Assembly: GCF_008001015.1 (NCBI RefSeq)
Contig: NZ_CP042862.1
Span: forward strand, 992,001-1,056,000
Direction: 5' to 3'
DNA: 64,000 nucleotides
From: Serinicoccus profundi
Lineage (GTDB): Bacteria > Actinomycetota > Actinomycetes > Actinomycetales > Dermatophilaceae
Under the pieces are notes generated by a model. The model had not been told where the DNA came from, did no database searches, and saw only the letters and a program-made list of their open reading frames with translations. The position numbers and the translations under genes were made by a program. Below are positions 56,261-59,868 of the stretch, piece by piece. How positions within the stretch are numbered: the stretch's first letter is position 1; each line of letters starts with the position of its first letter.

Positions 56261-56450
56261 CCGGCGACTTGGGTCTGAGCCCGCTGCGCTGCTAGCCTTG
56301 ACCGTTGCGTGCGCGCTGGGTCGTGCGCGCTCGCAGGACCACCGCACCACCCCGCGTACCGGACATCGCCAGGCATCCCCACGCCAGTTCGTCCGCACGC
56401 GGGTGTCGCCCTCACGACATCTGACCAGACGACTGACCAGGAAGTTCTCA

Positions 56451-56717
56451 GTGGCAAACATCAAGAGCCAGATCAAGCGCGTCAAGACCAACGCTGCGCG
56501 CACCGAGCGCAACCGCGCCCACAAGTCCGAGCTGCGCACCTTCCTGCGCAAGTTCCGCGAGGCCGCGGACGGTGGTGACAGCGGCAAGGCCGCCGAGGCC
56601 CTGCACGCCGCGTCGCGCAAGCTGGACAAGGCGGTCACCAAGGGCGTCATCCACAAGAACCAGGCCGCCAACAAGAAGTCGGCCATGGCCAAGCGCTTCA
56701 ACACCCTCGGCGGCTGA
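56451..56717 (+). CDS. rpsT: 30S ribosomal protein S20
   Basis: An 88-residue basic protein, [20 protein letters not shown] onward, ending [12 protein letters not shown]; binds 16S rRNA in the 30S body. GTG 56451 has AGGAAG 6 nt upstream. The 190-nt leader after holA has no other ORF and may hold its promoter or an autoregulatory structure. The gene ends before a strong hairpin at 56739. Confidence 0.97.
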
Positions 56718-56738
56718 GCACCCCTCACCCCGAGCAGC

Positions 56739-56776
56739 CAGCGGGCGTCCACCCCTCCCGGGGTGGGCGCCTGCTG
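56739..56776 (+). terminator. rpsT terminator hairpin
   Basis: A 17-bp stem (56739-56755 with 56760-56776), with two G-U wobbles and a 4-nt loop, 22 nt after rpsT. No T-run. The right arm is followed after 3 nt by TACCAT (56780-56785), the likely -10 box of the leuS leader transcript, so termination and initiation are packed together. Confidence 0.65.
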
Positions 56777-56779
56777 CGC

Positions 56780-56785
56780 TACCAT
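56780..56785 (+). promoter_or_regulatory. -10 box for the leuS leader transcript
   Basis: TACCAT, 9 nt before the leader peptide ATG at 56795. Transcription would start near 56792, making the leader peptide almost leaderless. The upstream -35 region falls in the rpsT hairpin and is not conserved-looking. Confidence 0.45.
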
Positions 56786-56794
56786 GGCCCGATC

Positions 56795-56836
56795 ATGGCG
56801 ACCCGCTGCGAGCTTCTTCTTACCGGGCCGCGCTGA
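56795..56836 (+). CDS. Leucine-rich leader peptide of leuS (attenuator)
   Basis: A 13-codon [16 protein letters not shown] then TGA. Three consecutive leucine codons are all CTT (56813-56821), a codon that is rare in this genome, where leucine is nearly always CTC or CTG. It begins about 3 nt from the predicted transcription start, ends inside the 5' arm of the first hairpin and lies 104 nt before leuS. This is the classic layout of a ribosome-mediated attenuator sensing charged leucyl-tRNA. The ORF is too short to be judged by codon statistics; the case rests on CTT clustering, hairpins and the downstream gene being leucyl-tRNA synthetase. Confidence 0.7.
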
Positions 56837-56863
56837 GCAGAGCACCGACCTGCGAGCGCGGCC
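56826..56863 (+). promoter_or_regulatory. First attenuator stem in leuS leader
   Basis: GGCCGCGCT (56826-56834) pairs perfectly with AGCGCGGCC (56855-56863). The 5' arm covers the leader stop codon and starts 5 nt after the last CTT codon, so a ribosome stalled on the leucine codons would block this stem. Its 3' arm ends at the base before the terminator stem. Confidence 0.6.
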
Positions 56864-56885
56864 AGCCCCTCCTGCGTGAGGGGCT
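56864..56885 (+). terminator. Attenuator terminator before leuS
   Basis: AGCCCCTC (56864-56871), 6-nt loop, GAGGGGCT (56878-56885), followed by TTCGT. A compact 8-bp GC-rich hairpin 55 nt upstream of the leuS ATG, inside the leader of leuS rather than at a gene end, so it is likely conditional. Confidence 0.65.
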
Positions 56886-56940
56886 TTCGTATGCACGAGG
56901 CGAGCACCCACCAGCAGCGAGAACGAGACGAGAGCAGACG

Positions 56941-59868
56941 ATGAGCGAGCGCATCCCCCAGCACCGCTACACCGCCGAGGTGGCCGGCGAGATCGAGCGC
57001 CGGTGGCAGCAGCGGTGGGCGGACGAGGACACCTTCGCCTCCGCCAACCCGGCCGGTCCGTGGGCCGCTCCGGACGACGCACGGCTGGCCGACGGGCGTG
57101 AGCACCGGGTGGTCATGGACATGTTCCCCTACCCCTCGGGGGCCGGGATGCACGTCGGTCACCCCCTCGGGTACGTCGCGACCGACGTCCACGCACGCTT
57201 CCTGCGGACCACCGGCGCCAACGTCATGTATGCCATGGGCTTCGACGCCTTCGGCCTGCCCGCCGAGCACTACGCGGTCCAGACCGGTCAGCATCCACGG
57301 GCCACCACGGAGGAGGCCATGGCGACCTACCGGCGCCAGATGCGGATGATCGGCCTCTCGCACGAGCCGCGGCGCACCTTCGCGACGATCGACCCGGACT
57401 ACGTGCGCTGGACGCAGTGGATCTTCCAACGGATCTACGACTCGTGGTACGACCCGCAGGCGGCCCCGCGTGAGGGATCAGGCCAGCTGGCGCCGGGGCG
57501 CGCGCGGCCCATCAGCGAGCTGGTCGCGCAGTTCGTCTCCGGCGAGCGGGAGCTGCCCGACGGCCGGGCCTGGGAGCAGCTGTCGCCGCCCGAGCGCGCA
57601 CGGGTCCTGGACGACTACCGGCTGGCCTACGTCTCCGAGGCGCCGGTCAACTGGTGCCCCGGGCTGGGCACCGTCCTGGCCAACGAGGAGGTCACCGCCG
57701 ACGGCAAGTCCGAGCGCGGCGACTTCCCGGTCTTCAAGCGCAACCTGTCGCAGTGGATGATGAGGATCACGGCGTATGCCGACCGTCTCACCGACGACCT
57801 GGAGCGGCTGGACTGGCCCGAGCGGGTGCGCCTCATGCAACGCCACTGGATCGGCCGGTCGGCGGGCGCGCAGGTCGCCTTCCCGGTGGCCACCGCGGCG
57901 GGCGAGGCGGCGCAGCTCGAGGTCTTCACCACCCGGCCCGACACCCTCTTCGGCGCGACCTTCATGGTCGTGGCGCCCGAGCACCCCCTCGTCGAGGCGA
58001 TCGTGCCCGAGGCCTGGCCGAGCGGCACCAAGGACGCCTGGACCGGCGGTGCCGCGACCCCGCTCGAGGCGGTCACGGCATACCAGCGGCAGGCCTCGAC
58101 CCGGAGCGACCTCGAGCGCCAGACCGAGGGCAGGGCCAAGAGCGGCGTCTTCAGCGGTGCCTTCGCGACCAACCCGGTGACCGGGACCCGCATCCCCGTC
58201 TTCGTCGCCGACTACGTGCTCATGGGCTACGGCACCGGCGCGATCATGGCCGTGCCCGGGCAGGACCAGCGCGACTGGGACTTCGCCACCGTCTTCGACC
58301 TGCCGATCATCCGCACCGTCCAGCCGGGCGCCGACCACCCGGAGGACGAGGCGTTCACCGGTGAGGGCCTGGCGATCAACTCCGCCAACGACGAGCTCAG
58401 CCTGGACGGCCTGGGGGTCGCCGAGGCCAAGGAGCGGATGCTCGTCTGGCTGGAGGAGACGGGCAGGGGCGAGGCCACGGTGACCTACCGGCTGCGCGAC
58501 TGGCTGTTCAGCCGCCAACGCTACTGGGGAGAGCCGTTCCCCGTCGTGTGGGACGAGGACGGTGTCGCCCACCCCGTGCCCGACGAGCAGCTGCCGGTCA
58601 CGCTGCCCGACGTGCCCGACTACTCGCCCCGCACCTTCGCCCCCGACGATGCTCAGAGCGAGCCGGAGGCACCCCTGGCGCGGGCCACGGACTGGGTCGA
58701 CACCACGATGGACCTCGGCGACGGACGTGGGCCGATCCCGGTGCGCCGCGAGACCAACACCATGCCCAACTGGGCCGGGTCGTGCTGGTACTACCTGCGC
58801 TACCTGGACCCCGCCAACGACGCCGCTCCGGTCGACCCGGCGGTGGAGGAGTACTGGATCGGTCCGCGCGAGCAGACCGTGGCCGGGGCGCCGGAGGGCT
58901 CCGTCGACCCCGGTGGCGTCGACCTCTACGTCGGCGGCGTCGAGCACGCGGTGCTGCACCTGCTCTACGCCCGCTTCTGGCACAAGGTGCTCTTCGACCT
59001 GGGCTACGTCAGCAGTGAGGAGCCCTTCCGGCGACTCATCAACCAGGGCATGATCGAGGCCTACGTCTACCGCGACGCGCGCGGTTTCGCCGTGCCGGCG
59101 GCCGAGGTGGAGGAGCACACGTCCTCCGGGGGCGGGCCCTCGACCTTCACCTGGGAGGGCCAGCCGGTCACCCAGGAGTACGGCAAGATGGGCAAGTCCC
59201 TCAAGAACGTCGTCACCCCCGACGAGATGGTCGACCAGTTCGGCGCCGACACCTTCCGGGTCTACGAGATGAGCATGGGCCCGCTGGAGCAGTACCGTCC
59301 GTGGGAGACCCGCGCGGTCGTCGGCAGTCAGCGCTTCCTGCAGCGGCTGTGGCGCAACGTCATCGACGAGGAGACCGGTGAGGTCACGGTCATCGACGAC
59401 GCGCCGTCGCCGGAGCTGACCAAGGCCCTGCACCGGACCATCGACGCGGTGGCTGCGGACTACGCCGCCCTGCGGACCAACACGGCCATCGCGCGGATGA
59501 TCGAGCTCAACAACCTGCTCACCAAGCTGGATGCCGTGCCGCGGGCCGTCGTCGAGCCGTTGGTGCAGATGGTGGCACCGGTCGCCCCGCACGTCGCCGC
59601 CGAGCTCTGGGAACGCCTGGGGCACGGCGACCTGACCTATGCCCCCTTCCCGCAGGCCGACCCGACCCAGCTCGTGGAGGACACGGTGACGGCCGTGGTG
59701 CAGGTCAAGGGCAAGGTCCGCGACCGGCTCGAGGTGGCGGCGGACATCTCCGAGGCCGATCTGGAGGCGCTCGCGATGGGCAGCGAGAAGGTCCAGCGCT
59801 TCCTCGACGGGGCCAGCGTGCGCAAGGTCATCGTGCGGGCTCCCAGCCTCGTCAACATCGTGGTCTGA
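56941..59868 (+). CDS. leuS: Leucyl-tRNA synthetase
   Basis: A 975-residue class I synthetase that charges tRNA-Leu. HIGH motif HVGH at 71-74 in [16 protein letters not shown]; editing (CP1) domain from about 290; KMSKS in the form KMGKS at 749-753; a C-terminal anticodon-binding and tail domain. Length is somewhat above the usual 860-960 because of inserts around 180-200 and 690-740. ATG 56941 is preceded by GACGAGAG. Expression is probably controlled by the leucine attenuator just upstream. degV follows after 16 nt. Confidence 0.96.

Follow-up and report, generated by a model that had tools for sequence, protein, structure and literature searches.

A probable leucine attenuator in front of leuS

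The gap between rpsT and leuS in the window (the whole stretch of DNA analysed, 64 kb long) likely holds a transcription attenuator through which a translating ribosome makes leuS respond to leucine, as comparison with relatives suggests. A sequence-only reading of the window had proposed such an attenuator, and the proposal is now supported by a leader that is conserved class-wide and by helices that covary. The parts it had listed (the TACCAT box, the 13-codon ORF, three successive CTT codons, a 9-bp stem over the stop codon and an adjacent 8-bp hairpin) are all present in the sequence, and the relatives in which it had suggested looking do have conserved leucine codons and covarying stems, across the class. 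The features are collected in Table 1.

Table 1. Features of the rpsT–leuS gap and its flanking genes, in window coordinates.
Feature	Position	Strand	Remarks
rpsT (ribosomal protein S20), upstream neighbour	56451..56717	+	GTG start placed by eye; TIGR00029
GC-rich hairpin 3' of rpsT	56740..56774	+	strong, without a T run; by eye
-10-like box TACCAT	56780..56785	+	9 nt from the leader start codon
Leader ORF, 13 codons, predicted near-leaderless	56795..56836	+	ATG 56795, TGA 56834-56836
Leucine codons CTT CTT CTT	56813..56821	+	only the last (56819-56821) conserved
Stem A, 5' arm GGCCGCGCT	56826..56834	+	covers codons P-R and the T of the stop codon
Stem A, 3' arm AGCGCGGCC	56855..56863	+	9 bp with the 5' arm, perfect
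Putative intrinsic terminator hairpin AGCCCCTC-ctgcgt-GAGGGGCT	56864..56885	+	8 bp; arms 56864-56871 and 56878-56885
Short U tract TTTCGT	56885..56890	+	weaker than in many relatives
leuS, leucyl-tRNA synthetase, 975 aa	56941..59868	+	ATG 56941; TIGR00396; presumed regulated gene

The rpsT product scores 100.6 bits against the NCBIfam model TIGR00029 (cut-off 33), and LeuS scores 872.7 bits against TIGR00396 leuS_bact (cut-off 548.4). The genome is a near relation of Ornithinimicrobium: its LeuS is matched best by named loci from there (77% identity), and the leaders of two loci from the window's genus (L258 and L277) are identical to those of the named Ornithinimicrobium loci L033 and L034. 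The hairpin behind rpsT is probably that gene's own terminator. Transcription of the leader is expected to start at about position 56792, some 3 nt ahead of its ATG, since the box lies 9 nt from the start codon here. As in the leuS leaders of the Streptomyces type, a short ORF with consecutive leucine codons precedes leuS and is followed by a hairpin with a (short) U tract, and cognate codons in the leader peptide are also found in trp-type attenuators. No nucleotide separates the terminator hairpin from stem A (0 nt in the window sequence).

Taken by itself, the window sequence provides moderate evidence that the element goes beyond chance. The leader folds with z = -1.63; among 200 shuffles of this one sequence, 13 fold equally well or better. 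When the window was scanned on both strands with a home-made search for stems that lie 0-2 nt from a hairpin with a U tail, this site came first with a score of 23.7, the next sites following not far below at 21.7 and 20.2; as a control, a score of 19 was reached by 1 of 260 shuffled ilvB upstream regions and by 1 of 26 antisense strands. A consensus scan of positions 56400-57100 did not find a sigma-70-type promoter. Rfam 15 gave no match at gathering score in the 64-kb window, and the six sub-gathering matches obtained at E <= 5 for positions 56700-56960 include no plausible leader family, T-box included. That the element is real is confirmed by sequence comparison: it is conservation, not the fold of the single sequence, that decides.

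Distribution of the element

A covariance model (R1) was built from an alignment (A1) of 37 sequences. These are 37 of the 54 sequences listed, the other 17 being omitted because they nearly repeat others or because their terminators were long or could not be parsed; 16 minus-strand loci were absent from the listing from which A1 was drawn. Run against whole genomes of the class, R1 has matches in 181 of 393, representing 68 of 123 genera, and within the window's genus in 30 of 31. When the phylum was sampled with 296 genomes, 23 gave a match, and six of these 23 belong to other classes. The window's own genome has a single match, which is this site. Among 110 loci selected by their LeuS (L003-L112; 30 through a family search and 80 named), 73 carry the element at E <= 1e-3, 37 of which match by construction as they built the model. 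Beyond Streptomyces, the element occurs in Micrococcales, Pseudonocardiales, Micromonospora and others.

The association with leuS is close: 85 of 86 genome-wide matches that were opened (26 loci and 60 regions chosen for variety among the matches listed) have a LeuS N-terminus within 1 kb downstream. In three loci from another class (L287-L289) the element precedes a LeuS with an N-terminus that is 35-36% identical. One genome (G282) has two matches (L153 and L154), each preceding leuS; it has two leuS-like genes with an attenuator each, reflecting either a second gene or contamination. That second matches in general mark extra leuS copies was considered and rejected: of those opened, L186 lies ahead of a citramalate synthase gene. 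R1 found no match in 212 of the 393 class genomes at E <= 0.01 with stricter Infernal filters, a result that does not prove absence, nor in 37 of the 110 LeuS-selected loci at E <= 1e-3, and the element would therefore be dispensable. As a separate observation, an ORF that ends in ...VMVTYHxxQxLIVLGLLR* is conserved ahead of the leuS leader in four loci (L008, L011, L032 and L036), its distance from leuS being about 190-360 nt.

For the comparison of leaders, the 159 matches were reduced by six repeats, by L186 (no leuS), by L196 (contig end) and by L049 (no anchor), which leaves 150. L069 is missing from the analyses of spacing, masking, arm swapping and overlap, which start from 149.

The leader ORF and its last leucine codon

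In the 149 leaders with a linked -10 box (TANNNT or, failing that, TANNNG/C), the start codon is ATG in 119, GTG in 29 and TTG in 1. It lies 6 nt from the box in 105 and 7 nt in 37 (together 142 of 149), compared with 9 nt in the window, and the spacing of 6-7 nt in the relatives fits a leaderless transcript. In 125 leaders translation would stop two codons past CCG (TGA in 124, TAG in 1), and TAG stands directly before the stem in 14; P-R and P-C are frequent peptide ends.

The sequence-only reading had taken the run of three CTT codons as the signal. That part needs correcting, as only the last of them is conserved. The last leucine codon is CTT in 142 of the 150 leaders (CTC in 6, CTG in 1, other in 1), a count that is not wholly unbiased since the anchor prefers CTN three codons before CCG and R1 carries that sequence, and with which the 106 of 113 leaders outside A1 and the 27 of 29 in the genus agree; in the genome-wide set the figure is 73 of 79. 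The codon ahead of it in the same 150 leaders is CTC in 64, CTG in 45, CTT in 37 and another codon in 4. As background, the leuS genes behind these leaders have, in their 5' parts, CTT at 17 of 3177 leucine codons (0.5%). Within the genus (29 leaders, with L286 dropped and L272, cut by a contig end, replaced by L333), the two leaders that do not end their leucine codons with CTT have CTG, and the two codons ahead of the last are mostly CTC, also CTT or CTG. One genus leader (L284) has a single leucine codon left, and this is a CTT. The locus dropped, L286, comes from a divergent incomplete genome; its leader frame has seemingly changed, with no stop at the stem and altered leucine codons, while stem and terminator are kept.

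The same reading had also held CTT to be rare here, and it was right: in a mechanical pick of 26 long ORFs of the window with high GC3, 12 of the 1274 leucine codons are CTT, and of the 67 in this leuS none is. Among the tRNA matches scanned in the own genome (40 of 45), tRNA-Leu with anticodons GAG, CAG, CAA and TAG was found, and by this set and established decoding rules CTT is presumably read by the GAG tRNA-Leu through a wobble pair. Anticodon TAA was not present among these 40 of 45 loci, and none of the 1274 leucine codons counted above is TTA. The idea that CTT is kept so that the leucine codons can pair with the terminator was rejected, as C would outpair U there.

Covariation and folding of the two helices

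The two helices are well supported by comparison. In the MAFFT alignment of the 37 sequences 90.1% of the pair cells are paired, against at most 53.9% when the pairing is slid along the alignment, and both sides have changed in 8 pairs, against 3.8 in shuffles (none of 500 reaches the observed number). Of the five covariation measures, one fails to exceed the shuffles: the count of further pair types, which 97 of 500 shuffles reach. Swapping arms between 91 representatives gave duplex energies with z = -13.0 for stem A and z = -19.5 for the terminator, which served as positive controls among the 23 segment pairs compared. None of the other 21 pairs reaches |z| 2 in these representatives, so that no third coevolving helix was detected by a test that is blind to invariant complementarity and in which two of the 21 (leucine codons with the stem loop, and stem loop with the terminator arm) are uninformative owing to broken swapped energies. 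In one genus locus (L285) stem A has a different sequence and its pairing is kept.

The spacing of the elements is also conserved. Stem A begins 5 nt past the last leucine codon, and the gap between stem A and the terminator is 0 nt in 83 of the 149 leaders, 1 nt in 42, 2 nt in 16, 3 nt in 7 and 5 nt in 1; it is thus 0-1 nt in 125 although the length of stem A with its loop varies from 21 to 65 nt. In 138 of the 149 the two hairpins have no nucleotide in common and neither can be extended into the other. In all four states compared, the terminator is predicted to pair with a median of 0.98-0.99, whether stem A is paired or not, and equilibrium folding therefore yields no switch. The pairing of stem A itself depends on where the ribosome is placed: counted from the first base of the last leucine codon, a mask of 8 nt gives a median of 0.99 and one of 12 nt a median of 0.53, and with the ribosome at the stop codon the median is 0. 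The difficulty of naming an antiterminator pairing, admitted in the sequence-only reading, finds its counterpart here in two hairpins that can coexist and in a third coevolving helix that was not found. In folds with stem A forced open, its free 3' arm pairs most often with the tail downstream of the terminator (68 of 149 lowest-energy folds); as an antiterminator this helix was rejected, with a swap z of +0.2.

The same layout before other genes

Upstream of ilvB, 22 of 26 loci from relatives have a stem adjoining a U-tailed hairpin, the flush spacing of which is not independent evidence because the scan admits 0-2 nt only. In 20 of the 22 a branched-chain codon is the third before the stem, the same place as in leuS; a further Ile codon follows it in three of the 20, and L204 and L209 are out of frame. 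The own genome has, outside the window, an ilvB leader of this layout (L222), MQFSALVLIT, with codons CTC GTA CTT ATT. In the window's ORFs ATT accounts for 4 of 402 isoleucine codons and GTA for 11 of 1262 valine codons. Of the leaders found before genes other than leuS, that of L186, MFYGLLIIGRRAG, is ahead of a fragment best matching citramalate synthase (TIGR00977, 374 bits, under the full-length cut-off of 450), that of L290, MTSTLTLLLLS, is ahead of 2-isopropylmalate synthase (NF002991, 488 bits, cut-off 455), and those of L291 and L292 are ahead of fragments best matching the acetolactate synthase large subunit. Judging by these sequences, the stem-terminator layout is a module used at several genes. 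The leuA leader of the own genome, MTHLLLLGRRSETL (L243), has a run of leucine codons, CTG CTT CTT CTT, of the LEU-element type.

Proposed mechanism and alternatives

Transcription would begin at the leader AUG or within about 3 nt of it, and a ribosome would load on the 5' end of the RNA and translate the leader while trailing the RNA polymerase. With ample charged Leu-tRNA it would pass the leucine codons into the P-R-stop segment, which makes up the 5' arm of stem A. The stem would thereby be kept open, the abutting terminator would close, and most transcripts would stop before leuS. When charged tRNA-Leu is short, chiefly the GAG isoacceptor that reads CUU via a G-U wobble pair, the ribosome would stall at or before the last CUU. 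The mRNA entry site is about 11 nt from the P-site base and would coincide with the base of stem A, which, starting 5 nt past the last CUU, would lie just beyond it and remain folded. A folded stem A, flush with the terminator, would then hinder the closing of the terminator base by contact. We infer that the leader is translated, that a stall on CTT keeps stem A and that folded stem A prevents termination; the direction of the response and the position of the ribosome would follow in the same way, the sign being taken from the geometry and from the consideration that falling charging should call for more of the synthetase. Steric interference is favoured because most of the hairpin pairs neither overlap nor compete at equilibrium, and antitermination by stem A through such contact has, in our estimate, somewhat less than an even chance of being correct.

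The main alternative to the steric step is kinetic pausing. The attenuator would be the same, with a polymerase pause at the terminator loop and the timing of the ribosome making the decision, without contact between the hairpins. A U-G or Y-G step with the folded stem A 10-12 nt behind it does resemble a hairpin pause, by eye and by the pause consensus, and the model for Corynebacterium ilvBNC includes a pause (PMC11857589). Timing alone, however, leaves the spacing of 0-1 nt in 125 of the 149 leaders unexplained, and we regard a purely kinetic switch as rather unlikely, if the most serious competitor.

A trp-type attenuator, in which stem A would be a 1:2 pause or protector hairpin and another helix the antiterminator, seems clearly improbable. 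Its candidates are the stem A 3' arm with the terminator loop, and the leucine codons with the 3' arm of the terminator. By eye, a 3' arm GCGCGG could pair with the frequent loop CUGYGY, GAGGGG is a possible partner of the leucine codons (mean energy of the cognate duplex -7.96 kcal/mol), and a hairpin pause would be compatible with the distance between stem A and the loop. Against this, the swap z is +1.7 for arm and loop and -1.8 for leucine codons and terminator arm, neither of which reaches |z| 2, and 12 of the 17 leaders with an arm GCACGG retain the loop CUGCGC or CUGCGU, which creates an A-C mismatch. The hallmark of the type, an antiterminator that overlaps and excludes the terminator helix, was not found, given that the swap test shows no third coevolving helix, that there is no overlap in 138 of 149 and that the hairpins coexist at equilibrium.

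Two further explanations do without a response to leucine shortage. If stem A were part of a tandem terminator, translation would open it and weaken termination, and the leader would couple leuS to translation instead. Both hairpins do coexist in the predicted folds, and double-adjacent hairpins are counted as terminator sites in PMC8355165, but this arrangement would reduce leuS under leucine shortage and leaves unexplained both the conservation of the last CTT and the branched-chain codons at the same position before ilvB; this opposite sign is less likely than the attenuator, and very improbable in our judgement. That the hairpins merely terminate rpsT, with leuS starting elsewhere and the small ORF accidental, is suggested by the position of the gap between the two genes and by the unremarkable single-sequence fold, and can practically be dismissed in view of the class-wide conservation of leader, last codon and helices, of the leuS that follows in 85 of 86 opened matches, and of rpsT's own hairpin at 56740-56774.

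Returning to the leucine attenuator with contact between its hairpins, a broader reading would be that it belongs to a two-hairpin class in Actinobacteria, with base-disjoint antiterminator and terminator, blocking by contact through a stem that starts 5 nt past the last 'hungry' codon and reaches up to the terminator, a rare last codon and a reused module. The last codon would be kept rare and be read by wobble or by a minor tRNA: CTT for leucine, and ATT, GTA or CTT before ilvB. The module would serve leuS, ilvB and citramalate synthase, with leuA in another class. We offer this generalisation tentatively, as a possibility well short of even.

Relation to known systems

Attenuators before leuS are already known as a type, and what may be new here is a variant of the mechanism. 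The idea itself is not new: Seliverstov et al. predicted in 2005 that leuS has a classical attenuator in Streptomyces avermitilis and S. coelicolor (PMC1262725), and leuL2 was in print in 2021 (PMC8079986). As described in PMC1262725, the Streptomyces leuS regions likewise have a leader with leucine codons and antiterminator and terminator hairpins; that report covers two species, whereas here the taxa are wider and rules for codon and spacing are added. The leuL2 of S. lividans TK24, MRAVRLLLSEPR, is reported as leaderless and before leuS, followed by a hairpin and uridines that seemingly promote Rho-independent termination (PMC8079986). Compared with leuL2 as reported, the peptide of the window differs, and its -10 box is 9 nt from the start codon, which would put the transcript start about 3 nt upstream. 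The main text of a Streptomyces griseus term-seq study does not mention leuS (PMC8914203). The leuL2 peptide recurs in our leader set, for example in L118-L120.

In the leu and trp attenuators of E. coli and Salmonella the hairpins overlap and are mutually exclusive. The control codons are CUA in leu of these species and CUU here. PMC1183508 discusses which codons attenuators use. The E. coli and Salmonella systems likewise have control codons in a leader peptide, an intrinsic terminator and biased codons. A nearer parallel is ilvBNC of C. glutamicum, where the leader start codon is one nt from the mapped start, CUU and GUA are control codons, and the bases of antiterminator and terminator adjoin and compete for a shared GCC, a third hairpin also existing (PMC11857589); an ilvB-II motif is described in PMC10272879. 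The adjoining hairpins and the CUU control codon are shared with ilvBNC as described there, as the predicted near-leaderless start would be, but unlike its hairpins with the shared GCC, those of leuS lack a common nucleotide in 138 of 149 leaders. The LEU element, described in PMC1262725 as a pseudoknot with leucine codons paired with the Shine-Dalgarno sequence and without mention of a terminator, precedes leuA, while the element of the window precedes leuS.

In the actinobacterial literature searched (figures, supplements and most subscription papers aside), we found neither a rule of CTT as the last codon, nor the 5-nt spacer, nor an antiterminator that is flush with the terminator without overlapping it. 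What goes beyond the literature found is the conservation of the last CTT, the fixed spacing of the stem and the missing textbook antiterminator.

With these results, a prediction for two Streptomyces species becomes a class-wide element tested by sequence comparison and without an Rfam 15 match here. It shows how actinobacteria may tune a tRNA synthetase without a T-box, and it provides simple rules for finding and testing such switches elsewhere, namely CTT as the last codon, a 5-nt spacer and a flush terminator. If the contact mechanism is true, a neighbouring helix would be able to block intrinsic termination without competing for base pairs.
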